Of a stretch of 64,000 bases of DNA, positions 12,206 to 49,531 are shown one piece after another. The stretch's first letter is position 1. The number at the start of each line of letters is the position of its first letter. The stretch is from a virus: positions 1 to 64,000 of IMG/VR virus record IMGVR_UViG_3300012005_000004, one strand, 5' to 3'. Both the position numbers and the translations under genes were made by a program. The notes beneath the pieces were generated by a model. It did no database searches, was not told the origin of the DNA, and saw only the letters and a list, made by a program, of their open reading frames with translations.

Positions 12206-13234
12206 ATGGACATCTACTCTCTAACGGCGAAGAAGCTTCTGGCGATCTCAGTTCCTGAGAAGCTGTTTACCCGTGATGGGTTAAAGAAGGAATGGCAAAA
12301 GCTATCCTCTAAGTGGCACCCAGACAAGAATGAAGCGGTTGATCATGGTGTGTTATCTCACATTAACATGCTTTATAATCAAGCCTTAGATAAGGTGGCG
12401 AAGGACCTTTGGGTAATTCCTGGACAGCTAGACCTTAGCTCTAAAGATGGAAGAAAGTTTCAGATTCACTATAAGAAGCACCGTGAGCTCGAGCTCGGTG
12501 ATATGTACATAAGCGACACGGTCGTCGCTTACATCATTAAACCTGGTAACTCAGACCTGGTAGCTTCAGCCAAGAAGATCACGTCTTCATTTTCATACGA
12601 TGGTGACGACATGAAGAAGGAGTACGCTAAGTATCTCCCGGAAACTATAGTCTCAACCCAGCTTATAGACGGTTCAGAGCTGATCGTTTACAAGAAAACG
12701 GCAGATGTGTTTTGTCTTCGAGATGTTCTTGAGCATTATGGAACGATCGACCCGAAGCACGTTGCTTGGATCATGAGCCGGTTGTATAACCTAAGCTGCT
12801 ACCTCAAGTGGGCGGGCGTAGCTCACAATCACATCTCTCCAGACACGATCTTTATCTCCGCTAAGTTTCACTCAGCGTTGTTGCTCGGTGGGTGGTGGTA
12901 CTCAACGATAATTGGAGAGAAGATGGTAGCCTTACCAAAGAGAACGATCGAGAACATAAGCCCTGCCTTGATCAAGGCTAAGGTAGGAACCGTTAAGGTT
13001 GACTCTGAGCTGATCAAAGCAACAGGACGAGAGCTGCTTGGAGACATTCATGGAATGAAGCTCTTGACAGATAAGAGCATCCCTAAAGCTTTCTTGATGT
13101 GGTTGCGTACTCCAGCTAACGGAAAACCGGTCGCTGATTACAAATTGTGGTACAATAAGATCTTACCAGACAGCTTTGGTCCTCGAAAATTTGTGAAGAT
13201 GGAGCTGTCGTCGAAAGAGGTATATGATGCTTAA
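12206..13234 (+). CDS. J-domain protein fused to a degenerate protein-kinase-like domain
   Basis: Residues 1-70 form a DnaJ-like domain with the HPD signature at 38-40 (SKWHPDKNE), the contact site for DnaK. From about residue 90 to the end the protein resembles a kinase fold. The spot of the HRDxKPxN catalytic loop reads HNHISPDTIFIS (207 onward), so the catalytic Asp is His209. LLLGGWW stands where DFG would be. It is therefore probably a pseudokinase. It starts directly after the upstream stop. The VWA protein at 13436 follows closely, and kinase plus VWA pairs are known in Ter-type stress clusters. Confidence 0.65.
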   Translation: MDIYSLTAKKLLAISVPEKLFTRDGLKKEWQKLSSKWHPDKNEAVDHGVLSHINMLYNQALDKVAKDLWVIPGQLDLSSKDGRKFQIHYKKHRELELGDMYISDTVVAYIIKPGNSDLVASAKKITSSFSYDGDDMKKEYAKYLPETIVSTQLIDGSELIVYKKTADVFCLRDVLEHYGTIDPKHVAWIMSRLYNLSCYLKWAGVAHNHISPDTIFISAKFHSALLLGGWWYSTIIGEKMVALPKRTIENISPALIKAKVGTVKVDSELIKATGRELLGDIHGMKLLTDKSIPKAFLMWLRTPANGKPVADYKLWYNKILPDSFGPRKFVKMELSSKEVYDA

Positions 13235-13403
13235 AGAGCTAACGTATGGATTGCTGCTGATTATAATGTTAGTTGGTGGATTTTTCTTGGGGGTTCAAGC
13301 AGTAACGTTGAGCGTAGATAATGCTTGTTCTCAGTCAGGAACGTGGCAACATGCAGGTCATTTTGGTGCACTGGGCGGAAAGATTACATGCAAGGTAGTT
13401 TAA
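13227..13403 (+). CDS. Small membrane or exported protein, 58 aa
   Basis: The ATG lies inside the end of the J-domain gene. Hydrophobic segment YGLLLIIMLVGGFFLGVQA, then a short outer part with two cysteines (ACSQSG ... KITCKVV). No family recognised. Confidence 0.55.
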   Translation: MLKELTYGLLLIIMLVGGFFLGVQAVTLSVDNACSQSGTWQHAGHFGALGGKITCKVV

Positions 13404-13435
13404 CGAGTCAATCGACTCACATTTAGGAGAATGAC

Positions 13436-14377
13436 ATGGGTGGTGGTACATGGGATCCAGGTAAGTGGGATGACACTTCGCGAGCAACAAAAGCGAAAAC
13501 TATTGACAAGGTTTTTACAACTTCAGCCGCATCGGTTGCGGCGAACGGGATCGACAAAGACCTCGACCCGATGAACGTCGCATTTCGAGAATCATGCGAC
13601 TCTGTTGATCATCCAAATTCGACAGCGCTGATCGCAGCACTTGATGTTACTGGTTCAATGGGGCACATTGCGCATCAGATGGCATCTGAAAGTCTCGGCG
13701 TTCTGTTCAAGGAGATCCTTGATCGTAAACCGATCTCTGATCCTCACCTGATGTTCATGGCCGTTGGTGATGCAGCAGCTGGTGATCGTGCTCCGTTGCA
13801 AGTGTCTCAGTTCGAGTCAGACAACCGCATCATTGATCAACTGACCAAGATCTACCTTGAAGGGAATGGCGGTGGTAACAGCTCCGAGTCGTACACTTTG
13901 CCTTGGTACTTCGCCGCCATGCACACGTCAATCGATTGCTTTAAGAAGCGCGGCAAGAAGGGTTACCTCTTCACGATGGGCGATGAGATGTGTCCGCGGA
14001 CTCTAACTGCTGGAGAGATCAAATCTGTTCTCGGAGATGATGTTCAAACCAACTACACCACCGAGCAGCTTCTTGAGATGGTCTCTAAGTCATACCACGT
14101 TTTCCACATCGTGATCGAACAAGGAAGCCACTTTAGGCATTCTCCAGGAGAAGTTACAGCTTCGTGGAAAGGAGTTCTCGGTCAGCACGCTCTGTTCTTG
14201 TCCGATCACACCAAGCTGTCCGAGGTCATCGTTTCGACGATCCAGGTCATCGAAGGCGAAGACAAGGACAAGGTCGCCGCATCGTGGGGTGGAGATACCT
14301 CGATCGTGGTCGGTAAAGCTATCGGTGGTCTCAGCACTGACGTTGATAGCATTACGTCGAGTGTGGTTAGGCTTTAA
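13436..14377 (+). CDS. VWA-domain protein
   Basis: A 313-aa protein with a von Willebrand A domain. The metal site is DVTGSMG at residues 70-76 (D-x-T-G-S, a variant of DxSGS), and later GDEMCPRTL may supply a further ligand. AGGAGAATGAC precedes the ATG. It probably works with the J-domain/pseudokinase protein upstream; VWA domains usually scaffold metal-dependent protein contacts. A strong terminator follows. Confidence 0.8.
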   Translation: MGGGTWDPGKWDDTSRATKAKTIDKVFTTSAASVAANGIDKDLDPMNVAFRESCDSVDHPNSTALIAALDVTGSMGHIAHQMASESLGVLFKEILDRKPISDPHLMFMAVGDAAAGDRAPLQVSQFESDNRIIDQLTKIYLEGNGGGNSSESYTLPWYFAAMHTSIDCFKKRGKKGYLFTMGDEMCPRTLTAGEIKSVLGDDVQTNYTTEQLLEMVSKSYHVFHIVIEQGSHFRHSPGEVTASWKGVLGQHALFLSDHTKLSEVIVSTIQVIEGEDKDKVAASWGGDTSIVVGKAIGGLSTDVDSITSSVVRL

Positions 14378-14400
14378 CATTTTTTGAAGTTGTTTGATTA

Positions 14401-14427
14401 AAAGCCCGGAAATTTTCCGGGCTTTTT
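14401..14427 (+). terminator. Rho-independent terminator, copy A
   Basis: AAAGCCCGGAA pairs with TTCCGGGCTTT over an ATT loop, followed by Ts. The stem-loop is base-for-base identical to the terminator at 56554-56581. Confidence 0.9.
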
Positions 14428-14436
14428 CTTATTTCA

Positions 14437-14465
14437 TATACAAGAGCTTGAAGCTATGTTATAAT
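14437..14465 (+). promoter_or_regulatory. Promoter, -35 TATACA / -10 TATAAT, probable leaderless transcript
   Basis: TATACA (14437-14442), 17-nt spacer, TATAAT (14460-14465). The next ATG is at 14472, just where transcription should start. Confidence 0.7.
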
Positions 14466-14654: not shown

Positions 14655-14806
14655 GCACACTGAGAGACCCAAGCCCACGGTTGAAAGCGGTACTACGCCA
14701 AATGGAGCTGATGAGCCAATTTCCTGCACAACCTTATAAAGTCAAAGTAGAAGGCGGAAAGATGACGGTCACGAAGCCGAAAAGGATCATAAATGAAAAC
14801 ACCTAA
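14651..14806 (+). CDS. Hypothetical protein, 51 aa, TTG start
   Basis: A TTG at 14651 overlapping the previous stop has AGGGAGA 6 nt before it and is preferred over the ATG at 14624. Basic protein with no recognised family. Its end overlaps the start of the PurA-like gene. Confidence 0.5.
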   Translation: MSTLRDPSPRLKAVLRQMELMSQFPAQPYKVKVEGGKMTVTKPKRIINENT

Positions 14807-16046
14807 GGTTGTTATCGGAGCTGGGTACGGTGATGAAGGCAAAGGTTTAATCACAGATTACTTGTGTGCGAAGCACGGAGCTGATGTCGTAATTAGATTC
14901 AATGGTGGAGCTCAAGCAGGCCACACCGTTCAAACCCCAGCTGGTGAGCGTCACGTCTTTAGCCATTTCGGCTCTGGGATGTACGCCGGCGCAGCTACGT
15001 TCCTCAGTAAGTTCTTCATCGTTAACCCGATCGCCTTCTTCAAGGAGGTAGAGCTTCTCTATTCTCCGTTGAGGGCCACCGTTCCAGATTTGTTCATCGA
15101 TCCCTACGCGATGGTTAGCACTCCGTATGACATGATCATCAATCAAATGCTTGAGCAAGAGCGCGGCAACGGACGAGTCGGCGCCAAGAAGCATGGAAGT
15201 TGTGGATTGGGTATCGGTGAAACTGTTGAGCGTTGCGAGAACTTAGCTCATGATGCTGGGATATTGTGGCATGAAGTCGAAGACTTCCCTATGTTTGAAG
15301 CAAAAATGAAGTACGTTCGAGATGTGTGGTATCCAACCCGTTGTGCTCAGCTAGGACTGGACCCAGATCTCGGTGCGCACGTCGCCAAGAATGATAACAT
15401 CTTCAACAACTTCATCGAAGATACCAAGCTGATGGCCACTTACGTCAAGGTAATGGATTCAGATTACCTTGACGGCGCTAATCAGATAGTGTTTGAAGGT
15501 GCTCAAGGATTGATGCTTGACCAGGATTATGGGATCGCTCCACACATTACTCGGTCAAACACCGGCATCTTAAACGTGTTGGACATTTGCGGTGATGTTG
15601 GAATTCAAGAGTTAGATGTTACTTATGTGACGAGGTGTTACACCACGAGACACGGAGCTGGTCCGTTAGACCATGAGCTGATTGTTCCACCATATCGATC
15701 AATCGTTGACCAGACAAACGTTCCTAATTCATTTCAGGGTTCGCTGAGGTTCGCTAACTTAGATCTCAATGTAATTAAAAATGCGATCGACAATGACCTT
15801 TATCGTGGTAGCATATACTTGCCACCGCCATACATGAAGGTGAACGCTGGACTAGCCGTAACGTGCTTAGATCAACTCAACGGAGAAGACGCTAAGTTTT
15901 ATTCTGGTGGATCTCTCGTTAAGGTAAAATCAGATGCATATGGAGATGCGGCCGACTATATCAATAACTTTGTAGGGTTGAAATCTCCAGTTATCAAGAG
16001 CTACGGACCAACTAGAGCAGATGTTATCCAAAAGGAAATTGTATGA
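14793..16046 (+). CDS. Adenylosuccinate synthetase family protein (PurA/PurZ)
   Basis: A 417-aa protein. PurA joins IMP and aspartate using GTP; the related phage enzyme PurZ uses dGMP to make a 2-aminoadenine precursor. Motifs present: YGDEGKG (residues 12-18, catalytic Asp14), GGAQAGHTV (with the catalytic-type His), VFEGAQGLMLD, RSNTG, TTRHGAGPLD and YGPTR near the C-terminus. The usual TTGRGIG loop reads GSCGLGIG, so the nucleotide pocket is altered. Asp14 is kept, which argues for PurA-like chemistry, but the divergence leaves substrate choice open. AAGGATC lies before the ATG, and the end overlaps the next gene by ATGA. Confidence 0.85.
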   Translation: MKTPKVVIGAGYGDEGKGLITDYLCAKHGADVVIRFNGGAQAGHTVQTPAGERHVFSHFGSGMYAGAATFLSKFFIVNPIAFFKEVELLYSPLRATVPDLFIDPYAMVSTPYDMIINQMLEQERGNGRVGAKKHGSCGLGIGETVERCENLAHDAGILWHEVEDFPMFEAKMKYVRDVWYPTRCAQLGLDPDLGAHVAKNDNIFNNFIEDTKLMATYVKVMDSDYLDGANQIVFEGAQGLMLDQDYGIAPHITRSNTGILNVLDICGDVGIQELDVTYVTRCYTTRHGAGPLDHELIVPPYRSIVDQTNVPNSFQGSLRFANLDLNVIKNAIDNDLYRGSIYLPPPYMKVNAGLAVTCLDQLNGEDAKFYSGGSLVKVKSDAYGDAADYINNFVGLKSPVIKSYGPTRADVIQKEIV

Positions 16047-19134: not shown

Positions 19135-20163
19135 ATGAAATCAACAATGTCGTACTTTTCGACCAGCTTCATCTTCACATTGGTCGCCCTAGTATTTTGT
19201 TACTTTGTCGCGGGCATCGAAGGAGCCTTCTTGGCTGGAGTTCTAGGGATCTTAGAGACCAGCCTATCGATGGACAACGCCGTCGTAAATTCCACGGTCC
19301 TTCGCGACATGGACCAAGTATGGAGGAAGCGTTTCCTGACTTGGGGTATGGTTATCGCCGTGTTTGGAATGCGACTCGTGTTCCCAGTCTTGATCGTCTG
19401 GGCTACCAGCACGCTAGGCCTTGTAGAATCTGCTGTACTTCCCTTTAAAAACCCACACCTCTATGAAACTACGCTGACGGCCGCTCATGTAAGCATCGCG
19501 GGCTTCGGTGGAACGTTCTTGCTGATGGTCTTCCTGAAGTTCTTCATCGATGATTCAAAGGAGGAACACTGGGTACCATTCGTAGAAAGCGTCATGGTCA
19601 AGGCTGGACGTATCGAAGCAGTACAGATCATCTTGGCTCTTGCGGTGGCTGCTGTAGTTACGCTGCTGCTGCCTGCCATCGATAAGATGCAGTTTATTCA
19701 ATCGGCCGTGTGGGGCATCATCGCTTACCTAGTAGTTGACGGCATCGGCGCGATCTTTGAGTCCGATGAAACTGAAGGATCAGTCGCCGCATCTGTCGCT
19801 AAGGCTGGGATCGCCTCATTCCTTTACCTCGAGATGGTTGACGCATCCTTCAGCTTTGACGGCGTAATCGGAGCGTTTGCGGTTACCAACAATGTTATCT
19901 TGATCGCGCTTGGCCTCGGGATCGGCGCCATGTTTGTCCGGTCGTTGACCTTGTTGATGGTAGACAAGAATACTCTCGGAACCTTCCGTTACCTGGAACA
20001 TGGAGCCTTCTGGTCGATCGGAGTTCTTGCCATCTGTATGTTCCTCGGCATCGTCGTTGACATCCCAGAGGTTGTCACGGGATTGTCGGCCGCGGTTATC
20101 TTGGGACTTGCTCTCGGACACTCCGTATATGCAAACCGTAAAGAGCTGGCGTTGGCCTCTTAG
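19135..20163 (+). CDS. DUF475 / TerC-superfamily integral membrane protein
   Basis: A 342-aa polytopic membrane protein with about eight hydrophobic segments. The TerC-type signature is LETSLSMDNAVVNSTVL (about residues 41-57), with acidic residues inside membrane helices thought to handle metal ions. A second copy of the pattern, LEMVDASFSFDGVIGAF, lies near residue 236. TelA, TerD and VWA genes follow, the usual partners in tellurite-resistance and stress clusters. GC-rich wobble bases suggest host-like codon adaptation. Confidence 0.88.
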   Translation: MKSTMSYFSTSFIFTLVALVFCYFVAGIEGAFLAGVLGILETSLSMDNAVVNSTVLRDMDQVWRKRFLTWGMVIAVFGMRLVFPVLIVWATSTLGLVESAVLPFKNPHLYETTLTAAHVSIAGFGGTFLLMVFLKFFIDDSKEEHWVPFVESVMVKAGRIEAVQIILALAVAAVVTLLLPAIDKMQFIQSAVWGIIAYLVVDGIGAIFESDETEGSVAASVAKAGIASFLYLEMVDASFSFDGVIGAFAVTNNVILIALGLGIGAMFVRSLTLLMVDKNTLGTFRYLEHGAFWSIGVLAICMFLGIVVDIPEVVTGLSAAVILGLALGHSVYANRKELALAS

Positions 20164-24403: not shown

Positions 24404-25042
24404 ATGAGTGCTCTCACTCTCAATCTGTCAAAACCTGGCGACGTCGCCCAAAAGCTGCAACTGAACCTCAAGAAGTCTGAAGCCTTCAAGGTCAAGCTTG
24501 CTTGGGAAGGCAACACCGACCTGGACCTGCACGCCCTGTTCTGCATCAATGACGGCTCCGGCGGAAAGATCAGCCAGCTCGAAGATATCCTTTCCACATA
24601 CAACGTCAAGCGGCGCCTCGGCGGCCAAGAAGCCGGCACACTGACCAAAAATCCCGATGGCACCTTCGCAATTCACGGTGGAGCCCTCATTCACAGCGCC
24701 GACGTAGACAATGGCGACTCATCCGAAGATGAAGATGAATGGATCCGTGTCGATCCTTCCAAGATGACGATCCCGCCCGGATCAGCCATCGAGATTCCAA
24801 TCATCGCGATGATTCATCCTCAGTCTTCCGGCCGGAACTTCAGCGGCGTTCAGAATGCCAAGGTGTCCGTGGAAGATGCCAACGGGACCGTCCTCATGTC
24901 GGCGAACCTCTCAGCCCAGTTCGGTCAGTTCGTCGGTGTGCAGATGGGTTCGATCATGATTGAAGACACCGGAACGAGCTTCGCTCAGGTTGGCGTCGGC
25001 TTCAACGAGGACTTCAACGGCGTCCTGGGCCACTTCTCCTGA
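24404..25042 (+). CDS. terD: TerD-family protein
   Basis: A 212-aa protein of the TerD/TerX group (calcium-binding beta sandwich). The N-terminus LTLNLSKPGDVAQKLQLNL is typical. FKVKLAWEGNTDLDLHALF carries the acidic DLDL metal motif, and VDNGDSSEDEDEWIRVD, IPIIAMIHPQ and FAQVGVGFNEDFNG follow as in the family. GC-rich codon use contrasts with the small genes around it, suggesting high expression or recent transfer. AGGAGTTAATT precedes the ATG. Confidence 0.88.
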   Translation: MSALTLNLSKPGDVAQKLQLNLKKSEAFKVKLAWEGNTDLDLHALFCINDGSGGKISQLEDILSTYNVKRRLGGQEAGTLTKNPDGTFAIHGGALIHSADVDNGDSSEDEDEWIRVDPSKMTIPPGSAIEIPIIAMIHPQSSGRNFSGVQNAKVSVEDANGTVLMSANLSAQFGQFVGVQMGSIMIEDTGTSFAQVGVGFNEDFNGVLGHFS

Positions 25043-25043
25043 G

Positions 25044-26066
25044 ATGAAACCGACCATCATCGGCGAGAAGAAAGTAGAGGTCACCAAGGTGTTTAAGCCA
25101 ACTGTGATCTCTACTCAAAGCTCGCCGGTGGAGACTCCTCCCATGAAACCGACATCATTTAAGCCGACTACCATTCCTCAATCGGAGACAAAGCCGAATG
25201 ATCCAGAGGAACCAAAGGCTTCATTTAAGCCGACCTCGTGGGAATCAAAGGTTCCTCCTCCAGAGGTAAAGCCAGTTCATCAGCCGATCGGACCTTCAAA
25301 GCTTCCTGGACAAGAGCGCCACACGTTGGATGTTTCATTTGATGAGGTCAAGAAGAAATTCATAGCCTACGATGATGATATCATCCAAGCAACACGAGAT
25401 ACGCTTTGTGGTGTTATCATCGAGTCAATGGATACACAAGCCACCATGATGTTCGGCGTCAAGGTTCAACAAAGCTACAGCATCATCGTTGACAAGTGGC
25501 TCAAGGTCCTTGAAGGCGATCAGGTTAGAACCACAGGTCGGCACGTTCAGCGATTGAAGGAAGTTCTTCAAACCGTCGCTGATTCTTTGACCGCAGGACA
25601 ACCATGGTTTCGTCGTGAAACTATCCAGGGACGCTTTGATAAGGTAAAACCAGAGATAGAACAGCTTAGACAGCTCCTTCGTACTGGTGAACAACAGCTC
25701 TCAGTGGCAAATCGAGAGCTGACCGAGTTGAAGCTGTCTACTCAGCGCTTGATTAAGGAAGCGACAGGTTACATGCTCGCGTGCGAGTACATCATACCTA
25801 AGCTTCCAGAAGACAAGGGACGTCTCTTGAATGATCGTGGTATGTCTTTGACTAAGACGATCAGCTTGCTTCAAACTCAAGCGATGAAGCTAGATCAAGA
25901 TGAACAGAACATAACAGCGCTATTAACTAATATCCAGGATGGTGTGCTTATTGCCCTTCCTGCACTTTTATCAACCGTAGCAACGGCCGTTCAAGATGAG
26001 AAGAATGACACACAGCGGTTCGTCGTTCGTGATCAATTGATGGACGTCATCCGTAAGTTAACTTAA
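25044..26066 (+). CDS. Ter-associated helical protein with KPT-rich N-terminus
   Basis: ATG at 25044 follows the TerD stop by 1 nt; the longer frame upstream lies inside terD and is ignored. Residues 1-95 are a disordered Pro/Lys/Thr tract with repeated FKPT units. Residues 100-340 are long helices that recall TelA (QRLKEVLQTVADSLTAGQPW, SLLQTQAMKLDQDEQNI). It is probably a partner of TerD and TelA; the exact family is uncertain. Confidence 0.65.
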   Translation: MKPTIIGEKKVEVTKVFKPTVISTQSSPVETPPMKPTSFKPTTIPQSETKPNDPEEPKASFKPTSWESKVPPPEVKPVHQPIGPSKLPGQERHTLDVSFDEVKKKFIAYDDDIIQATRDTLCGVIIESMDTQATMMFGVKVQQSYSIIVDKWLKVLEGDQVRTTGRHVQRLKEVLQTVADSLTAGQPWFRRETIQGRFDKVKPEIEQLRQLLRTGEQQLSVANRELTELKLSTQRLIKEATGYMLACEYIIPKLPEDKGRLLNDRGMSLTKTISLLQTQAMKLDQDEQNITALLTNIQDGVLIALPALLSTVATAVQDEKNDTQRFVVRDQLMDVIRKLT

Positions 26067-26075
26067 GGAAATCAA

Positions 26076-26843
26076 ATGGCAATTACACTGAATCTTCAGA
26101 AATCCCAAGCAGCTCTGCAATTGAACTTGCAAAAGGCCGGTATCATCACACCTCCTTCCGTTGAGATGATGTTCATCCTTGACGTCAGTGGTTCTTTTGA
26201 AACTGAGCATATCAATGGCACCACGAATGACCTGATCACACGGCTCGTTCCGTGGGGTATGACCTTTGACCCGGACAAGAAGCTTGACTTGCTGACCTTC
26301 TCCAATGGTCCAAACTCTGTACAAAATGTAGGTCCTGTAACCGACGCCAACTATAAGGACTTTGTCAAGAAGAACATCATCAACAAGGTTGAAGGTTGGA
26401 ACGGCGGAACTGACTATAGCTACGCTCTCGAAGAATCGCTGAAGGAATTTGGTTGGATCGGTGAAGGTATCGGTGGAGCGGCGCCAGCCGAAAAACCTGG
26501 GTTCTTCGGTAAGCTCTTCAGTAAGAAGGAAACTCCAGCCATCACCGCTCCAACTTCACAGAAACGAAAGTCTCTTGTCATCTTCGTTACTGACGGTGAA
26601 AACAGCGATCGTGACCGGACCACGAAGATCCTCCAGGAATCTGAAAACCGCCATGACGGCTGCTACTTCCTCTTCATCGGCGTTGGCCATGGCAACTTCT
26701 CCTACCTCAAGCAAGCTGGAGATAAGTTTGCCAACACTGCCTTCTACGAGATCAAGGACCTGAAGAAGTTCATCAGCATGTCCGACGAGGACCTGTACGG
26801 TGAGCTGATGCAGGAAGAGCTGATGTCCTGGATGAAATCCTAA
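26076..26843 (+). CDS. VWA-domain protein of the Ter set (TerF/TerY-like)
   Basis: A 255-aa protein. The first 24 residues (MAITLNLQKSQAALQLNLQK) copy the TerD-type N-terminus. A VWA domain follows with the metal site DVSGS at 36-40 (MMFILDVSGSFETE). An inserted linker (PAEKPGFFGKLFSKKET) and VIFVTDGENSD are also seen. VWA proteins of this type occur with TerD, TerC and TelA. A ribosome site AAGGAAAT precedes the ATG. Confidence 0.85.
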   Translation: MAITLNLQKSQAALQLNLQKAGIITPPSVEMMFILDVSGSFETEHINGTTNDLITRLVPWGMTFDPDKKLDLLTFSNGPNSVQNVGPVTDANYKDFVKKNIINKVEGWNGGTDYSYALEESLKEFGWIGEGIGGAAPAEKPGFFGKLFSKKETPAITAPTSQKRKSLVIFVTDGENSDRDRTTKILQESENRHDGCYFLFIGVGHGNFSYLKQAGDKFANTAFYEIKDLKKFISMSDEDLYGELMQEELMSWMKS

Positions 26844-29736: not shown

Positions 29737-30894
29737 ATGAAGATTGTAGTCGTTGGAGGGATCGGTGCTGGTAAGTCGACCGTTATAGAGAAGCTTCAAA
29801 CAGAGATGCTAAAGATGAATACTAGCATCGAGCCTATAAAGCCATCGGTGACTTTTTGCAGCGTTGATAAATTCGTTAGTTGGCTTTATGAAAACAGCAT
29901 AGAGGTTAAGGAGTTCTTGAAGTCCTTAGGAATAAAAGATAAAGCTCAGATGTCGGACGTTGTGTTTGAAAATCCGTTTATCAAGGAAAAGCTTGAGAGC
30001 ATCTGCGCCCCTTTGATCTCAAAGGAAATTAACTATTGGGTCGATCGAGAAGATTGGAAAAAGAACCACTTGATCGTCGAATTTCCATTGCTATTTCAAT
30101 ATCCGGAGTACCTCGATAAGTTTGATGTGATCGTTTCAGTTACCGCTCCAATTGACGTAAGGATCGGTCGTATTAAAAATCGCAATGGGTTCTCTACTGA
30201 CAAGATACTTTCAATCATAAACTCTCAACCTTTACAGCAAGACGTAGATGAGAGGGCTGACGTTGTGATTTACAACGGATCAGATAAGCTCGATAGTGAT
30301 GACATTAATATCTTGTTGAATGACATCGGAGAAGCTTATTTTAAGAAACAAGCTAGTTTAGAACATACTGATAAAGATGAATCAGATCTAAAGATCGGTA
30401 TCGTTTCTGGTTCATTTGATCCCATCACCAAGGGTCACATGTGGCTGATTGATCGTGCTCTGGACATGGTGGACAAGGTCTATATCGTGATCGGAACCAA
30501 CCCAGGAAAGAATAGCCTCTTCACGCAAGATGAAAAGAAGAATATGATCTGCGATTCTCTAGATAGTTTACCTAAACATAAGCTAGAAAGAGTTCACATT
30601 AAGGTCCTTCCAGAGTCTGAGCTATTGGTGTATTACGCAAAAGAGCTTGGTGCGGCCTTCATCTTCCGTGGTCTCAGGTCTGGCATTGACTTTGAGTATG
30701 AATCTCAAATCAACATGACACAGCGAAAGCTTAATCCAGACATCGAGATAGTTTACTTGATGCCTCCACGTGACAAGATCGAGATCAGCTCATCCTTTGT
30801 AAAAGGGCTATACAAGCTTAACGGTACCGATGAGCTGATTCAATCTTACGTTCCATATCCAGTTTATGAAGCTCTCAAGAAAAAGTTAAAATGA
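29737..30894 (+). CDS. Fused dephospho-CoA kinase (CoaE) and phosphopantetheine adenylyltransferase (CoaD)
   Basis: One 385-aa protein carries both last steps of CoA synthesis. Residues 1-210 match CoaE: P-loop GGIGAGKST (7-15), ICAPLISKEI, EFPLLFQ, RIGRIKNRNG and ERADVVIYNGS. Residues 218-385 match CoaD: SGSFDPITKGHMWLI with T/HxGH at 231-234, FRGLRSGIDFEYE and EISSSFVKGL. The order CoaE-CoaD is opposite to the animal CoA synthase fusion (PPAT then DPCK). In bacteria the two are normally separate genes. All signature residues look intact. It follows the HAD gene by 2 nt and overlaps the next by ATGA. Confidence 0.9.
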   Translation: MKIVVVGGIGAGKSTVIEKLQTEMLKMNTSIEPIKPSVTFCSVDKFVSWLYENSIEVKEFLKSLGIKDKAQMSDVVFENPFIKEKLESICAPLISKEINYWVDREDWKKNHLIVEFPLLFQYPEYLDKFDVIVSVTAPIDVRIGRIKNRNGFSTDKILSIINSQPLQQDVDERADVVIYNGSDKLDSDDINILLNDIGEAYFKKQASLEHTDKDESDLKIGIVSGSFDPITKGHMWLIDRALDMVDKVYIVIGTNPGKNSLFTQDEKKNMICDSLDSLPKHKLERVHIKVLPESELLVYYAKELGAAFIFRGLRSGIDFEYESQINMTQRKLNPDIEIVYLMPPRDKIEISSSFVKGLYKLNGTDELIQSYVPYPVYEALKKKLK

Positions 30895-42219: not shown

Positions 42220-44208
42220 ATGGGCAAACTTCTTGAACGTTTCATGACGGACCTAGGCGGACGATCAACAGATGATCTAATCCCACTCGAAGATTATCTC
42301 GAGCTCTGTAAGACAACCCCAGCAGTTTACGCATCTCCAGCTCAGCGTATGCTTAAGGCTATCGGTGATCCAATCACGATCGACACGCGCAACGACACCC
42401 GGCTGGCCAAGGTGTTCGGCAACAAGATCATCCGTCAGTATCCAGCATTCAAGGATTTCTACGGCATGGAAGACGCGATCGAAAACATCGTGTCGTACTT
42501 CAAACACTCCGCTCAGGGTCTTGAAGAATCTAAGCAGATCCTGTACTTGCTTGGACCGGTCGGCGGCGGTAAATCGTCTTTGGCTGAAAAGCTAAAAGCT
42601 TTGATGGAAGATGTTCCGGTCTACATTCTCTGCACCCATGAAAAGGAAAAGAAGAACGAACACAGCACCGTCGAGAAATTTACCACTGAAGTATCTCCGG
42701 TCTTTGAAAATCCGCTCGGGTTGTTCCACGGAAAAGAATCGTACGTTACGATGCTCGCCGAAGAATATGACATCCCAAAAACCGCGATTCGTACCATCCC
42801 ATCGCCGTGGGCTGTTAAGAAGCTCGAAAGCTACGGCTATGATTTCTCAAAGTTCTATGTCAAGAAGATCTATCCAAGCCGTCTTCGTCAAGAATGTATC
42901 GCTCGGGTTGAACCAGGCGATGAAAACAACCAGGATGTTTCTTCAATGGTCGGCGAGCTTAACATCCGCATGCTCGAAAAGTTTGACCAGGATCACCCCT
43001 ACGCTTACACCTTCTCGGGTGGATTGAACAAGGGTAATAATGGCTTGGTCGAAATGGTTGAAATGTTCAAGACCCCGATCAAGATGTTGAATCCTCTGCT
43101 GACGGCCACGCAAGATCGTAACTACACCGGTACGAAGCCGATTGGTTCGATTCCGTTTGACGGCATCATCATGGCTCACTCGAACGAATCTGAATGGTCG
43201 CAGTTTAAGAATAACAAGACAAACGAAGCGTTCCTCGATCGCGTCTACGTTGTTCACGTTCCATATTGCACACGGGTCAATGAAGAAATTTCGATTTACA
43301 AAAAGCTATTAGCTCACTCTGAACTGTTCAAGGCGCCTTGTGCTCCTGGAACTCTCGAGTTCCTCGCGCAATTCTGCGTTATGTCTCGTCTTGAAGAGCC
43401 TGGCAACTCAACTCTGTACTCAAAGATGCGAGTCTACAACGGCGAAAACGTCAAGAACGATGATCCGAAGGCTAAGCCTATCCAAGAATACAAGGATGCG
43501 GCCGGAGTCAACGAAGGCATGAAGGGTTTGTCAACTCGTTTTGCCTTCAAGATCCTCTCGAAGACGTTCAACTTTGACACCGAAGAAGTTGCGGCAAATC
43601 CGATCCACCTGATGTATGTCCTCAAGACGTCCATCGCCCACGAGCAATTTGACAGCGAAAAGAATGATGCGCTGTTGGAAAATCTCGACGGTGTGCTGTC
43701 GGACAAGTACATGGAGTTCCTCGAGAAGGATATCCGCGCATCGTTCCTGGATTCATTCCAGGACCTCTGCCAAAATGTCTTCGAGAACTACTTTTACTAC
43801 GCCGATGCGTGGGTTCAGGACCAGGAGTTCCGCGATGCAGATACAGGCGTCATGCTTGATCGGCCGGCCATCAACGCCGAGCTGGAGAAGATCGAGAAGC
43901 CTGCCGGCATCTCTAACCCGAAGGACTTCCGTAATGACATCACGAACTTTGTGATCCGTTATAAGTCTGATCATGGTGGTCAGCTGCCGAAGTGGGATTC
44001 TTTCGCTAAGATGCGGGACGTGATCGAGAAGAAAGTTTTGGCTTCGACGGATGAGATCCTTCCGGTCATCTCATTTGCACCGAAGCGCTCGGAGCAAGAC
44101 CAGAAGAAACATGAGCAGTTTGTTGGAAAGATGGCGGCGCGCGGTTACACCGAACGCCAAACTCGATTCCTTTGCGAATGGTTCATGCGTTCCAGGAAAG
44201 CGTCGTAA
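42220..44208 (+). CDS. prkA: PrkA/YeaG-family AAA+ serine protein kinase
   Basis: A 662-aa protein, close to the 644 aa of E. coli YeaG. The N-terminal AAA part opens with LGGRSTDDLIPLEDYLELCK. Walker A is LLGPVGGGKSSLAEKL near residue 110. The middle has HGKESYVTMLAEEYD. SIPFDGIIMAHSNESEW and NNKTNEAFLDRVYVVHVPYC are hallmark PrkA segments, and the C-terminal kinase-like domain is present. YeaG acts with YeaH in starvation and stress responses; YeaH and SpoVR homologues follow here. Codon use is host-like. Confidence 0.92.
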   Translation: MGKLLERFMTDLGGRSTDDLIPLEDYLELCKTTPAVYASPAQRMLKAIGDPITIDTRNDTRLAKVFGNKIIRQYPAFKDFYGMEDAIENIVSYFKHSAQGLEESKQILYLLGPVGGGKSSLAEKLKALMEDVPVYILCTHEKEKKNEHSTVEKFTTEVSPVFENPLGLFHGKESYVTMLAEEYDIPKTAIRTIPSPWAVKKLESYGYDFSKFYVKKIYPSRLRQECIARVEPGDENNQDVSSMVGELNIRMLEKFDQDHPYAYTFSGGLNKGNNGLVEMVEMFKTPIKMLNPLLTATQDRNYTGTKPIGSIPFDGIIMAHSNESEWSQFKNNKTNEAFLDRVYVVHVPYCTRVNEEISIYKKLLAHSELFKAPCAPGTLEFLAQFCVMSRLEEPGNSTLYSKMRVYNGENVKNDDPKAKPIQEYKDAAGVNEGMKGLSTRFAFKILSKTFNFDTEEVAANPIHLMYVLKTSIAHEQFDSEKNDALLENLDGVLSDKYMEFLEKDIRASFLDSFQDLCQNVFENYFYYADAWVQDQEFRDADTGVMLDRPAINAELEKIEKPAGISNPKDFRNDITNFVIRYKSDHGGQLPKWDSFAKMRDVIEKKVLASTDEILPVISFAPKRSEQDQKKHEQFVGKMAARGYTERQTRFLCEWFMRSRKAS

Positions 44209-44375
44209 TGAATAGCCGAGAGATGTTTGAGCAGTCATTCAAGCGTCCCTCGGACTATTTTAGGTTGACAGCCGAGCATCAATGGGAAATTGATGCTCGG
44301 CTTGGAATCCTAGATTGGGACGGGAAGAACTTGACAGAAGAAGATCATCTTAGATTTAGAAAACATTATGAATGA
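44208..44375 (+). CDS. Hypothetical protein, 55 aa
   Basis: Start at the TAATG overlap with PrkA. Charged and aromatic: SFKRPSDYFRLTAEHQWEID ... LRFRKHYE. Followed at once by a terminator hairpin. No family recognised. Confidence 0.6.
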   Translation: MNSREMFEQSFKRPSDYFRLTAEHQWEIDARLGILDWDGKNLTEEDHLRFRKHYE

Positions 44376-44378
44376 GCA

Positions 44379-44410
44379 AATGGAGAGTATTTTACTCTCC
44401 ATTATTTTTA
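44379..44410 (+). terminator. Hairpin terminator between PrkA and the next genes
   Basis: AATGGAGAGTA pairs with TACTCTCCATT (11 bp, 3-nt loop), followed by ATTTTTA. It may lower expression of the genes after PrkA. Confidence 0.75.
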
Positions 44411-44416
44411 GAGAAC

Positions 44417-45016
44417 ATGAAAAATATAAAGATCATATCAGGGGGTCAAACAGGGGCCGACCTAGCTGGGTTGTGGGTAGCAAAGTTATTTGGATTACAG
44501 ACAGGAGGGATGGCTCCTAAGGGATGGAAGACGCTGATAGGTTCAATGCCTCAGCTTGAAACCCTATTTCAAATGGGAGAGTCCGCAAGCGGATATCATG
44601 GCAGAACATTAGAAAATTGCGAGATGTCTGACATAACGCTGATCTTTGCATCTAATATTAAGTCGCCAGGTACCAAGCTAACTCTTCACCATTGTGTCAA
44701 GAACAAGATTCACTATCAAATCTTTGCGTTCGGAGACGATGCGGTTACTGCATCAGATCAAGCACTAGGAAGATTAGTAACAGTTTTGCAAAATCAACTT
44801 GCGGTGAATGAAGATTCGATCATTAACATCGCGGGTAATTCAACCTCGACATCCTCACAGACCTTCAAGTTTACATTTCTCTTGTTGTGTAAAGCTTTTG
44901 AGCAAGTTCTCAGATTTAAACCAGAGCAGCTGAAGAATCATGGTATAGATAAGGTAGAGGCGATGGCACGAGACCGCTATGATCAATCAACTTTTGATTT
45001 TCTTACAAAAGTGTGA
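44417..45016 (+). CDS. YpsA/LOG-like (SLOG) putative molybdenum-carrier-type protein
   Basis: Start at ATG 44417, because the longer frame upstream crosses the terminator. 199 aa, beginning MKNIKIISGGQTGADLAGL. The GGQTGAD glycine motif, GGMAPKGWKT and GYHGRTLENCEMSD match the 'putative molybdenum carrier' (pfam12694-like) branch of Rossmann SLOG proteins. Members of the wider group bind nucleotides or related ligands. It sits inside the PrkA-YeaH-SpoVR stretch. Confidence 0.75.
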   Translation: MKNIKIISGGQTGADLAGLWVAKLFGLQTGGMAPKGWKTLIGSMPQLETLFQMGESASGYHGRTLENCEMSDITLIFASNIKSPGTKLTLHHCVKNKIHYQIFAFGDDAVTASDQALGRLVTVLQNQLAVNEDSIINIAGNSTSTSSQTFKFTFLLLCKAFEQVLRFKPEQLKNHGIDKVEAMARDRYDQSTFDFLTKV

Positions 45017-45097
45017 GCGGTGAGATCAAAATTTCTTTTAGTATCTTTTTGAGAAGATCTATATTAGAATAGATCTAATCATGGAGAATTCAAGGAA

Positions 45098-45859
45098 ATG
45101 AAGGATAATAACTCAAAGCTTCTCGGATTCAATGTTGCACAAGCTGCCTCTCAGTTTCGCTTGATGCAGCATCACGAATTGGTTAGCTACATCTTTCGCT
45201 CGAATGGTGTTGAGGATTACCTTGATTATTTCAATGCCCACAATCCATCTAGCGATATCCCATATCACAATAAGTACCACACTTATTGTATGGCATTGAA
45301 TGTCTATGAGGCTTCTCTCTATTACAATCTTTCTATAGAAGCTCGACGAGCTCTTCTAGTTGCCGCATTATTTCACGATTATGATCATTCTGGTGGACGC
45401 AAAACTGACGACATAAACGTCGCCATAGCCGCAAATAACCTGGTTGATGCTCATAAACAGCTTGTAGAAATATACCGAACTCAACCGGTCTCCGACGTCG
45501 GAGACCACTTCGCTCACTTAACTCCAAAAGAGCTCATTGATGCGATTGAGACGTTGCTTATTACTAAATACCCCTATGATGGACCTCCAGTCACGATGCT
45601 TCAAAAGATCATTCGTGATGCGGACTTGATGCAAGTATACGAAGAAGATGCTGATCGTCTGCGACAGCAATTTCTCGGTCTAAAGGCTGAGATGGAGCTT
45701 ACGCGCGGACCCTTTACACCAGAACAATGGGGCGATGGATGTCGTGATTTTAACGATGCTACCGTCTGGCATACCCAGTGGGCCCAGGACAAGGCGGTCG
45801 CCTTGGACCAAAAGGCTTGCACGGAACATCTTAGAAATTTATTGATAGGAAACAAATGA
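45098..45859 (+). CDS. HD-domain phosphohydrolase
   Basis: 253 aa. The HD metal motif reads HNKYHTYCMA ... ALFHDYDHSGG, with a later D (IIRDADLMQVYEED), so the H...HD...D set is complete. The layout recalls the catalytic domain of cyclic nucleotide phosphodiesterases. Substrates could be cyclic or other nucleotides. CAAGGAA precedes the ATG; the end overlaps YeaH by ATGA. Confidence 0.8.
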   Translation: MKDNNSKLLGFNVAQAASQFRLMQHHELVSYIFRSNGVEDYLDYFNAHNPSSDIPYHNKYHTYCMALNVYEASLYYNLSIEARRALLVAALFHDYDHSGGRKTDDINVAIAANNLVDAHKQLVEIYRTQPVSDVGDHFAHLTPKELIDAIETLLITKYPYDGPPVTMLQKIIRDADLMQVYEEDADRLRQQFLGLKAEMELTRGPFTPEQWGDGCRDFNDATVWHTQWAQDKAVALDQKACTEHLRNLLIGNK

Positions 45860-47241
45860 GCATCGTCATCAATGATAAGCGTAAAGTAACAAGGGATCGC
45901 ACGTCTGAAAATCGGGCTCGTTTCCTTCGACGCATCAAGGGAACCATCAAGGAACAGATGAATGATATCATCGGTGGAAAATCTCTCAAGGAGATGGACA
46001 AGACCGGTGGTAACATAAAGGTTAATCGAAAAACGATAACCGAGCCTCAGATCTGGCACACCGACGGAGGTAACGTCGATCGCGTCTTGCCTGGAAATGA
46101 TCAATATGTTCCAGGAGATACCATCCAGAAACCACGCCAAGGCGGAGGTCAAGGACGCGGCAAGAATGCAAGCGATGGTCCAAACTCTGAAGATGATTTT
46201 GTGATTGAGCTGTCTCCTAAGGAATTCATGGATTATTTCTTTGAAGACCTAGAGCTGCCAGACATGATGAAAACCCAGCTGACGAAGATCAAGGAATATA
46301 AGCGTGAAAATGCTGGATTCCAAACAGATGGATCTCCGAATCGGCTGTCGGTCATTCGATCTTACAAACAATCTTTCGCGCGCCGAATGATGATGAATGG
46401 AGTCTTCAAAGATCGCATCGCTATTCTCAACGAGCTACTTTACGTATTGACAAACTCGGAGATGCTAGCGGTGAAAATGATATCACTTCCACTTACGATT
46501 GATATCAAAGAAGCTGTGATCGAGACCGATAAGCTGCCTGAACGTGGAACATTTGAGCATGATCTTTTAGTCGCTACTGTCCAAGCTGAGATAGATCATT
46601 TGCACTTCAAGTGCGAGAACATGGCGATGTTCGAAGAGATGGACATGCGCTATAGAACTGTTATTAAGCGTGAGATTCCGATCGCACACGCTACCATGAT
46701 GATGATCATGGATAACTCAGGATCGATGGGTGAGAAGGAAAAGACGATCGCTAGGAAGTTCTTCTGGTTGCTATACTCCTTCCTGGTCCGCGCATACGAG
46801 AAAGTTGACATGGTATTCATCTCACACACCACCGAAGCATCTGAGATGACCGAAGAAGAATTCTTTAACACTCGCGAGAACGGTGGAACTATCGTATCTT
46901 CAGCTTTGGATCTCACTAACGAGATCATCCAGAAGCGTCTGTTAAATAAGACTAACATCTATGTTGCTCAAGTTTCTGATGGTGACAATGTAGATTCTGA
47001 CAATGACACTTGCATTGACATTCTTACCGATCAAATCCTCCCAAACATTCGCTACATGGCTTATGTTCAGGTAGATGATTATCATGGAGATGAAAATGCA
47101 AATGTCTATGGGAAAGGTTTATGGAGAGCTTATAAGTCGATCTCAGATACTAACTCGCGGTTGCAGATAAAACGCGTGCAAGATGAAAATAACATCTACC
47201 CTGTCTTCAGGGATTTGTTCAAAAAGAAAGAAACATCATAA
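45856..47241 (+). CDS. yeaH: YeaH/YhbH-family protein (DUF444, VWA-like)
   Basis: 461 aa. The N-terminus (DRTSENRARFLRRIKGTIKEQ) and GGGQGRGKNASDG linker are typical of DUF444. The VWA metal site is MDNSGSMGEKEKTIARKFFW, followed by FISHTTEASEMTEEEFF and GGTIVSSAL, the family core. YeaH is encoded next to YeaG/PrkA in bacteria and is thought to be its partner. ATGA overlap upstream, TAATG-type overlap downstream. Confidence 0.92.
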   Translation: MSIVINDKRKVTRDRTSENRARFLRRIKGTIKEQMNDIIGGKSLKEMDKTGGNIKVNRKTITEPQIWHTDGGNVDRVLPGNDQYVPGDTIQKPRQGGGQGRGKNASDGPNSEDDFVIELSPKEFMDYFFEDLELPDMMKTQLTKIKEYKRENAGFQTDGSPNRLSVIRSYKQSFARRMMMNGVFKDRIAILNELLYVLTNSEMLAVKMISLPLTIDIKEAVIETDKLPERGTFEHDLLVATVQAEIDHLHFKCENMAMFEEMDMRYRTVIKREIPIAHATMMMIMDNSGSMGEKEKTIARKFFWLLYSFLVRAYEKVDMVFISHTTEASEMTEEEFFNTRENGGTIVSSALDLTNEIIQKRLLNKTNIYVAQVSDGDNVDSDNDTCIDILTDQILPNIRYMAYVQVDDYHGDENANVYGKGLWRAYKSISDTNSRLQIKRVQDENNIYPVFRDLFKKKETS

Positions 47242-47450
47242 TGAAAGTCAAAGTAGAGATTAAGTACCCACGGTTCGCGGTTCAGTTTGGAAGACAGATC
47301 GCCTTTGGACAGATCTACAAAGATGGTGCATTGTTCTTTGACGGATCAATCGCTCAAATTTTAGAGGTTGTTAAAGTGCAAGACTTTGAGATCGAGAACG
47401 CGCAGGAGATTCTTGACCTTATAGTTCGACTCCACGGGTTTGCTTGCTAA
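47241..47450 (+). CDS. Hypothetical protein, 69 aa
   Basis: Starts on the YeaH stop. Beta strands KVKVEIKYPRFAVQFGRQI and a C-terminal helix ENAQEILDLIVRLHG. No family recognised. Confidence 0.55.
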   Translation: MKVKVEIKYPRFAVQFGRQIAFGQIYKDGALFFDGSIAQILEVVKVQDFEIENAQEILDLIVRLHGFAC

Positions 47451-47459
47451 AAGGCAGAG

Positions 47460-47975
47460 ATGAAACTCTCAACGATTTGGCATCTTCTCGCCTTAGCGAC
47501 GGCTGCTGGTTTAGTAGCAATTTGCTATCCAGAACCTACTAAGAAACCAGAGCTTAAGCAAGTGGTTTCTACCACCTTAACTAAGGTCCCTGGAGTCTCT
47601 GAAGGTATAGAGCTGTACATAGACACCAAGACCATCGAAGATTTTGTTGATTCAAAGTCCTCAGTTCGACACGCTGTAGTGGTGTACTATTTTACAACAC
47701 CACTTGTCATTAGAGGTAAGGATGTTTATTACATGCAAAAAGATGCTTTTTATGCATGTGATGATAATCTCTTCTTAAACGGTGATATAATCTTCTATGA
47801 CAAGGCCGCCAGCCAGCTTTTCAAAGGACCAACTGGTGTCGGTGTTGAAAAACCAGAGAAGGATACAAACTCAGAGGTTGAGATGAAATTTATCTGTGGC
47901 TCCAATGTTACAAAGAAGTCAGCTCCAAAGAGCTCAATCGGCCCAATAAAGCCACTTAATCACATTTACATTTAA
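47460..47975 (+). CDS. Exported or membrane-anchored hypothetical protein, 171 aa
   Basis: The hydrophobic N-terminus (IWHLLALATAAGLVAICYP) looks like a signal anchor. The rest is beta-rich with two cysteines (AFYACDD, FICGSN). No family recognised. Confidence 0.6.
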   Translation: MKLSTIWHLLALATAAGLVAICYPEPTKKPELKQVVSTTLTKVPGVSEGIELYIDTKTIEDFVDSKSSVRHAVVVYYFTTPLVIRGKDVYYMQKDAFYACDDNLFLNGDIIFYDKAASQLFKGPTGVGVEKPEKDTNSEVEMKFICGSNVTKKSAPKSSIGPIKPLNHIYI

Positions 47976-47986
47976 GGAGCATTAAC

Positions 47987-49531
47987 TTGTCCGAAGATAA
48001 ACTATTATTCAAGGCCGGTGATGATTGGACGTTTGAGATGCTCGATAAGATCTGGACCGAGATCGAGATCATCGCTAAGGAAGAGCTGCGAATTCCTTAT
48101 TACAAACCACAGATTGAAGTTATCACAGCACGACAGATGCTTGATGCTTATACCTCTGTCGGTATGCCAACATACTACAAACACTGGTCATACGGTAAGG
48201 AATTTGTCCAAAGCGAGAAGCAGTATCTCAATGGACAGATGGGTCTCGCTTACGAGATTGTCATTAACTCTGACCCATGCATCGCTTACCTGATGGAAGA
48301 AAACAATGCCCTGATGCAAACCTTGGTCATGGCTCACGCTTCAGTCGGCCACGCGGCGGTTTTCACGAACAACTACCTATTCCGCCAGAACACAGACGCG
48401 TCGGCGATCGTAGATTATCTCAACTTTGCTAGGGATTACCTGAAAAAGTGCGAGGAAAAGTATGGCTTTGATGAGGTAGAAGGTGTACTAGATGCATGCC
48501 ATGCGTTATCGAACTACGGTGTCGATAAGTACAAGCGTCCACCAAAGATTTCGGCTGACAAAGAAGCTAAGAAAGCGATGGAGCGCTTTGAGCGCGAATT
48601 TGCTGACTACGATCCGATCTGGGCTAAGATCGGAAAACGGAAGGCTGATGCTAAGGATGTAAATCCTGTCACTGATACTAAGCTTGCTGAATCACAGGAA
48701 AACATCCTCTATTTTATCGAGAAAAATGCTCCACACCTTCCAGGTTGGAAACGTGAGGTCATCCGCATCGTACGGAAGATCAGTCATTATTTCTCACCGC
48801 AGCGTGCCACCAAGGTTCTGAATGAAGGGTACGCATCATTCACCCACTTCTACATTATGAATCGACTTCATGAGAAGGGTTTCATCGACGGTGGTTCGAT
48901 GATTGAATTCTTCGCTAGCCACAGCGGAGTTCTAACTCAACATAAATTTTCACAGTTCAACCCGTACAAGCTTGGTTTTTCGATCTTCATGGACATCAAG
49001 AGGATGGGTGAGGATCCAACCGATGAAGATCGATTATACTTTCCTGACCTTGCTGGAAAAGACTGGGTCACCGAGATTAACTATGCGATGAAGAACTTCA
49101 AGGATGAAACATTTATCCTTCAGTACCTATCTCCAAAGGTCGCTCGAGACATGCAGTTGTTCGTAATTAACTCAGAGTCGACAGGAGCTACACAATACGG
49201 CGTAACCGAGATCAGTAACCTTGAGGGTTTTGAAACTTTGCGTAAGAAATTGGCCGCACAGTTCGCGATGGAAAATATCATCCCCGACATCCAAATTTCA
49301 AACGTTGATTACAAGCGCTCACGAAAGCTTACTCTTGAGCACCTGGTTAAGAACGGGAAGCCAATCAATATTGATGATACTCGTCGCGTTGTCCAACACG
49401 TCGCCGATCTGTGGGAATACTCAGTCACGCTAGATACCTTCGAATATGACAAGGAAGATGATGCAACCAAGCTTCACATCACAGCCCTTGGAAAATACTC
49501 AATGAAATCATATGAAGAAACCCACAGTTAA
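47987..49531 (+). CDS. SpoVR/YcgB-family protein, TTG start
   Basis: 514 aa, matching E. coli YcgB (about 510). The start is TTG at 47987 with a strong AAGGAG 8 nt before it. Family segments: IPYYKPQIEVITARQMLDAY, MPTYYKHWSYGKEF, YEIVINSDPCIAYLMEEN, HAAVFTNNYLF and GYASFTHFYIM. SpoVR-type proteins are co-encoded with PrkA and DUF444, and affect the Bacillus spore cortex and stress survival. The molecular activity is not established. Confidence 0.92.
   Translation: MSEDKLLFKAGDDWTFEMLDKIWTEIEIIAKEELRIPYYKPQIEVITARQMLDAYTSVGMPTYYKHWSYGKEFVQSEKQYLNGQMGLAYEIVINSDPCIAYLMEENNALMQTLVMAHASVGHAAVFTNNYLFRQNTDASAIVDYLNFARDYLKKCEEKYGFDEVEGVLDACHALSNYGVDKYKRPPKISADKEAKKAMERFEREFADYDPIWAKIGKRKADAKDVNPVTDTKLAESQENILYFIEKNAPHLPGWKREVIRIVRKISHYFSPQRATKVLNEGYASFTHFYIMNRLHEKGFIDGGSMIEFFASHSGVLTQHKFSQFNPYKLGFSIFMDIKRMGEDPTDEDRLYFPDLAGKDWVTEINYAMKNFKDETFILQYLSPKVARDMQLFVINSESTGATQYGVTEISNLEGFETLRKKLAAQFAMENIIPDIQISNVDYKRSRKLTLEHLVKNGKPINIDDTRRVVQHVADLWEYSVTLDTFEYDKEDDATKLHITALGKYSMKSYEETHS

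Follow-up and report, generated by a model that had tools for sequence, protein, structure and literature searches.

A J-domain/pseudokinase fusion protein, a VWA protein and a PurA-like enzyme encoded by a conserved gene module of phages, plasmids and bacteria

The window analysed here, a 64 kb stretch of an 80.4 kb virus record (IMG/VR IMGVR_UViG_3300012005_000004), encodes a predicted protein in which a J domain is joined to a kinase fold that has lost its catalytic residues. The gene for this protein, hereafter the J-pseudokinase, is followed by a gene for a VWA protein, and both belong to a conserved three-gene module whose third member encodes a relative of adenylosuccinate synthetase (PurA). 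We propose, at a probability of roughly 0.4, that the PurA-like purine enzyme is served by a chaperone pair of its own, the J-pseudokinase and the VWA protein, and that the three genes travel as a transferable module tied to NAD/ADP-ribose stress. The module has the following features in the window.

12206..13234, + strand: J-domain/pseudokinase fusion protein, 342 amino acids (open reading frame, PF00226, phrog_3043, AlphaFold model, Foldseek, homologue alignments)
12227..12400, + strand: predicted J domain, residues 8-65, with helices 8-12, 23-37 and 47-65 (secondary structure of the model, J-domain matches in the PDB)
12317..12325, + strand: HPD motif, residues 38-40 (intact in 19 of 21 aligned and 3 of 3 further homologues)
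12425..13177, + strand: predicted kinase-like domain, residues 74-324 (model, Foldseek)
12749..12769, + strand: DPKHVAW, residues 182-188, the most conserved stretch of the pseudokinase (alignments)
12830..12832, + strand: His209, at the position of the HRD catalytic Asp (alignments with mycobacteriophage homologues)
12887..12889, + strand: Gly228, at the position of the DFG Asp, within LLGGWW (alignments)
13436..14377, + strand: VWA protein, 313 amino acids, phrog_2971 family (open reading frame, phrog_2971, alignment, model, Foldseek)
13643..13657, + strand: MIDAS-type motif DVTGS, VWA residues 70-74 (alignment of 18)
14793..16046, + strand: PurA-like (adenylosuccinate-synthetase-like) protein, 417 amino acids, third gene of the module (PF00709, E 2e-45; alignment of 18 sequences; E. 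coli PurA by profile, E ~1e-51)
14829..14846, + strand: GDEGKG loop with catalytic Asp14, of PurA type and not the Ser of PurZ (Asp invariant in 18 sequences)

The reading frame at 12206-13234 starts directly behind the stop of the preceding frame, and its product is predicted to be a J domain fused to a bilobal protein-kinase fold. Single-sequence searches of Pfam, NCBIfam and PADLOC recovered little for proteins of the window; PF00226 matched residues 21-43 of the J-pseudokinase at E 9e-4 and 19.7 bits, below the Pfam cut-off of 27.8. A profile built from 15 homologues reached J domains of solved structures in the PDB (E 2e-6) and, end to end over profile positions 27-265, the human DNAJB1-PRKACA fusion J-PKAc (E 1.3e-5). 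Homologue profiling also found the VRK3 kinase (E 1.6e-4), and the PHROGs family phrog_3043, named 'kinase', matched residues 179-238 (E 1.9e-6). In the AlphaFold2 model (mean pLDDT 91.5, pTM 0.80) helices 23-37 and 47-65 flank the HPD loop, with an N-lobe and then a C-lobe behind them, and the top four Foldseek matches are structures of the human J-PKAc chimera (E 5e-8 to 1.4e-7), ordinary kinases coming next. The first-pass annotation, which had read an intact HPD as part of a J domain and the remainder of the protein as kinase-like, had named two ways in which this could fail, a structure model without a kinase fold and an HPD segment lying outside a J domain; both were examined, and the reading survived. 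Because full-length homologues with 33-46% identity share the gene order, chance can be discounted. J-PKAc shares with the J-pseudokinase the order of an N-terminal J domain and a kinase fold, but it is a human cancer rearrangement (fibrolamellar carcinoma) with an active kinase, and a shared origin of the two fusions is not implied. Cyclin-G-associated kinase (GAK) is a natural combination of kinase and J domain that recruits Hsc70; it differs in being eukaryotic, with an active N-terminal kinase, a C-terminal J domain and further domains between.

The HPD motif is kept in 22 of the 24 homologues assembled (21 aligned and 3 further), the exceptions reading HPR (L017) and HPN (L034). The catalytic set of protein kinases fares differently: the window's J-pseudokinase has Ala108 for the beta-3 Lys, a position placed by means of the actinobacterial members, along with His209 for the HRD Asp and Gly228 for the DFG Asp, and none of the 24 homologues has all three catalytic residues. 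Since the J motif persists in nearly every member while the full triad is found in none, the alignments indicate that selection acted on the J motif and not on catalysis, and that the kinase half is a pseudokinase. What is conserved instead in the main branch is DPKHVAW, GGWW and a C-terminal FGxRKF stretch, which suggests a binding surface. The degenerate active site had been noted at first reading, with the proposal that the domain binds but does not phosphorylate. Absence of phosphorylation agrees with the loss of the HRD and DFG aspartates; ATP binding is doubtful, because Ala108 replaces the beta-3 Lys besides the loss of both aspartates. An active kinase, or another transferase with unusual catalytic residues, is a very improbable reading of this half: the beta-3 Lys is retained, although only in the actinobacterial/actinophage branch, the DFG Asp is kept in four actinophage members, four members scattered among the 21 aligned have an Asp where the HRD Asp is expected, and pseudokinases with unusual chemistry exist, yet the three residues never coincide and the window member has none of them.

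The product of the gene at 13436-14377 is predicted to fold as a genuine VWA domain and carries a MIDAS motif. The protein matched phrog_2971 of PHROGs (E 1e-51); there were no Pfam VWA matches by sequence and no matches of its profile to PDB sequences, and the fold search alone succeeded. The AlphaFold model (pLDDT 83.3, pTM 0.87) resembles integrin I domains and the VWA domain of NorD in Foldseek, and D70, T72, G73 and S74 of the MIDAS-type motif are invariant in 18 homologues, which upholds the VWA neighbour named in the first-pass annotation. The protein gave no PF10138 matches and is not of the TerF family. For NorD, contact between the VWA MIDAS and an acidic site of the client is supported (PMC9976466). 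No MoxR-type AAA+ gene was found beside the VWA gene in the neighbourhoods read; AAA_5 matches were scattered, with none in two mycobacteriophage records.

The PurA-like protein is much nearer to PurA of E. coli (profile E ~1e-51) than to PurZ (~1e-12), and its predicted substrate may differ from that of E. coli PurA, because its C-terminal part departs from the latter. PurZ and PurZ0 of Z-genome phages (PMC12884076) are likewise phage-borne relatives of adenylosuccinate synthetase. A PurZ identity, and with it a role in Z-DNA, was ruled out for the window protein by the retained catalytic Asp14, which is Ser in PurZ (criterion from PMC12884076).

The linkage of the three genes was assessed in 28 non-redundant VWA loci, with a J-pseudokinase cluster of 21 loci. 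The VWA gene lies immediately 3' of the J-pseudokinase gene in every locus long enough to judge, with a gap of -1 to 35 bases in 15 of 20, and the PurA-like gene then follows the VWA gene in 26 of the 28, the remaining two being stretches that end there. In a longer read of one of these (L054) the PurA-like gene is next. Among plasmid records, all 18 with a PurA-like match also have a VWA match. Furthermore, the distances of the module genes co-vary (Pearson 0.66-0.80), which fits joint inheritance, though plain phage phylogeny could give the same.

Homologues of the J-pseudokinase occur in IMG/VR phages, large phages among them, and 190 mycobacteriophage records carry a full-length homologue; in the large phages and the mycobacteriophages alike, the VWA and PurA-like genes come next in the same order. 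Bacterial copies of the module, in part from soil bacteria, lie in chromosomes and on plasmids, the latter from Agrobacterium, Allorhizobium, Acetobacter, Rhizobium, Methylorubrum and Rhodovulum. In Rhodococcus and Tsukamurella, VWA and PurA-like genes are preceded by a gene for a divergent J-pseudokinase. The module is rare in Alphaproteobacteria: of 385 genomes sampled, 3 have it, and two of those were seeds of the search. Phage and bacterial sequences are intermingled in the VWA tree, where the Rhodococcus and Tsukamurella copies group with those of mycobacteriophages (100/100); the module has been exchanged repeatedly among phages, plasmids and chromosomes.

Most of the mycobacteriophage homologues are annotated 'serine/threonine kinase', though no examined member has a complete active site. 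In these records, about 190 in number, and at L004 (2892-3965), which bears the same label, the N-terminal J domain is unannotated and the HRD Asp is missing. A Met-rich protein (L002, 4217-4930; L003, 3774-4568) is encoded at or near the J-pseudokinase slot upstream of the VWA gene in phages of Vibrio and Rhizobium. It was rejected as a counterpart of the J-pseudokinase, having no family matches and not being alignable with it by eye. A J protein encoded two genes upstream of the VWA gene at L008 was likewise set aside as a different protein, its J domain being C-terminal.

An NrtR-type or Nudix gene adjoins the module in most bacterial loci. In eight of them an NrtR-family gene (NF050029, E 1e-38 to 8e-49) is adjacent and divergent, NrtR_WHD scores above cut-off in both alphaproteobacterial loci tested, and weaker or broken Nudix/NrtR genes are found in the Acetobacter, Rhodococcus and Tsukamurella loci. 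Certain NrtR-bearing loci have the VWA and PurA-like genes without a J-pseudokinase. The stretch that separates NrtR from the operon contains palindromes such as ACTTGCAAAATGCAATTTGCAAGT, possible operators shared by the two, clear in L032, L050, L051 and L052 (L050 and L051 being near-identical) and weaker in L043. In Thalassospira, NadM-Nudix, NadE, NAPRTase and PncA-like genes lie upstream of the module. Because relatives of NrtR sense ADP-ribose (reviewed in PMC9503650), the NrtR-type neighbours suggest that the module is induced upon NAD+ turnover.

As to what the module does, an HSP70 (DnaK) gene was not found in 22 phage records, several of them fragmentary, and this, together with the J domain, points to host DnaK as the likely partner of the J-pseudokinase, as for the phage protein Rki (PMC3486835). 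The VWA protein, we infer, would hold its client through the MIDAS metal site, the pseudokinase would serve as a docking platform that binds the VWA protein, the PurA-like enzyme or both, and host DnaK, recruited by the J domain, would fold, activate or remodel the complex, in the place held by a MoxR ATPase in NorQD- and CbbQO-type systems. Such a DnaK-powered pair is proposed because the J domain points to host DnaK, VWA proteins serve ATP-driven partners by binding acidic client sites (PMC9976466), and a linked MoxR gene was not found. In the known MoxR AAA+/VWA pairs (NorQD, CbbQO and RavA-ViaA; PMC9976466) a MIDAS-bearing VWA protein is likewise thought to hold the client for an ATP-driven chaperone, whereas the present module has a J protein in the ATPase's place. 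In bacteria an ADP-ribose-responsive NrtR-type repressor would keep the module off until NAD+ is being consumed, and phages may carry it to sustain adenine nucleotide pools during infection. If this chaperone reading is true, the module offers a natural weld of J domain and pseudokinase, and a VWA system with DnaK in MoxR's stead. The constant PurA-like partner and NrtR-type neighbour make its role testable in phages of M. smegmatis and in alphaproteobacteria.

Several observations weigh against the chaperone reading. Gut phages, Vibrio and Rhizobium phages and some bacteria have the VWA and PurA-like genes but no J-pseudokinase, which is therefore dispensable. The NF050029 scores fall far under the 400-bit equivalog cut-off and the ADP-ribose ligand is thus not assured; NrtR was found in bacterial loci only, and the Micavibrio locus (L029) is without it. 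NAPRTase, considered as a general phage companion of the module, was dropped, being present in only 3 of 16 phage records, and NAD genes are not general in phages. Finally, a hairpin and 415 bases separate the VWA and PurA-like genes in the window, where two signals are predicted.

14400..14426, + strand: terminator-like hairpin behind the VWA gene, 12-pair stem followed by a T-rich tail (consensus scan, function only predicted)
14437..14465, + strand: promoter-like site ahead of the PurA-like gene, 10 of 12 matches (consensus scan; such sites are not in excess across the region)

Of the other explanations, one would have the module act in defence or counter-defence: the PurA-like enzyme would clear the deaminated purines (IMP/dIMP) that arise from (d)ITP-making defences of RADAR or Kongming type, or would help to restore NAD+ after NADase defences, while the VWA protein and J-pseudokinase would protect or sense clients. 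The NrtR-type regulator beside the bacterial operon, the NAD genes adjoining certain copies and the repeated exchange among phages, plasmids and chromosomes are consistent with it, as is the activation of an NADase by dITP made by Kongming (PMC12774641). VWA chaperones and regulators of NrtR or WYL type, furthermore, are recurrent members of predicted ADP-ribose conflict systems (PMC9503650); such systems centred on ADP-ribosylglycohydrolase share with the module a Nudix-type ADP-ribose-sensing regulator and a VWA chaperone but differ from it in that the module has a PurA-like protein and a J-pseudokinase, and an ADP-ribosylglycohydrolase was not noticed. This explanation is nonetheless unlikely, as PADLOC gave no matches for the window proteins and only generic kinase matches for a mycobacteriophage homologue, and known defence genes were not linked in the neighbourhoods read. 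Less likely again is a takeover of the host in the manner of Rki, in which the J domain would divert host DnaK, the pseudokinase would target it, the VWA protein would be a partner and the PurA-like gene would be incidental. Rki of phage RB43 depends on its J domain being intact, engages host DnaK through the J motif and helps the phage (PMC3486835), and the HSP70 search in phages agrees with such a role. The C-terminal domain of Rki is uncharacterised, VWA and PurA-like neighbours have not been reported for it, and it stabilises sigma-32 (PMC3486835). Against this explanation, the PurA-like linkage is too regular for an incidental neighbour, and the module is found in chromosomes and on plasmids where phage genes were not seen beside it.

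Jumbo phages are known to have J proteins and MoxR-vWA pairs, and for their DnaJ and MoxR-vWA proteins a role as chaperones in virion assembly has been proposed (PMC7824862). Extending that proposal to the present pair is improbable, since its neighbours are ligase, ribonucleotide reductase, exonuclease, PurA-like and phosphoesterase genes and not virion genes, bacterial copies occur without virion genes, and there is no MoxR neighbour. The first-pass annotation had placed the kinase and VWA pair in a Ter-type stress network, and a small Ter cluster is indeed present in the window, 5-12 kb downstream of the pair.

19135-20163: TerC/DUF475
24404-25042: TerD
24960-26066: TelA-like, weak
26076-26843: TerF-type vWA

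That assignment failed, and membership in such a network is now scarcely credible: TerD is present in just 3 of 16 module-bearing phage records, against a PurA-like gene after VWA in 26 of 28 loci, and it is not beside the module in the three bacterial genomes tested, while the VWA protein is not of TerF type and the neighbours elsewhere are PurA-like and NrtR genes. The broadest form of the chaperone reading goes further than the pair itself, in holding that phages and bacteria share an undescribed transferable J-pseudokinase/VWA/PurA-like system in which a purine enzyme held by the VWA protein and responding to NAD+/ADP-ribose stress, perhaps for defence or counter-defence, draws on host DnaK in place of a MoxR ATPase; we offer it tentatively, as possible but rather doubtful. 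The domains are known ones, set in a fusion and a cassette for which the open-access literature searched, outside which most subscription papers lie, yielded no paper, in agreement with the remark at first reading that this architecture was not familiar from described systems.

Elsewhere in the window, PrkA/YeaG kinase (PF08298/PF06798), DUF444 (YeaH-like) and SpoVR genes, known from a bacterial stress operon, lie in one stretch at 42220-49531, and the PrkA has close relatives in three uncultured phages of more than 600 kb. The stretch 29737-30894 encodes a fusion of a nucleotidyltransferase domain with a dephospho-CoA kinase (CoaE) domain, resembling a bifunctional CoA-synthesis enzyme. Also encoded are an rIIB-like protein whose C-terminal domain is of the acyl-carrier type (phosphopantetheine attachment; PF00550, E 4e-9) at 54409-55794, and a phage PAS-GGDEF-EAL protein of cyclic-di-GMP turnover at 56747-58867. 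A TROVE/Ro-like RNA-binding protein is encoded at 61081-62517, and Vibrio phage phiKT1024 has a TROVE gene near its VWA and PurA genes.
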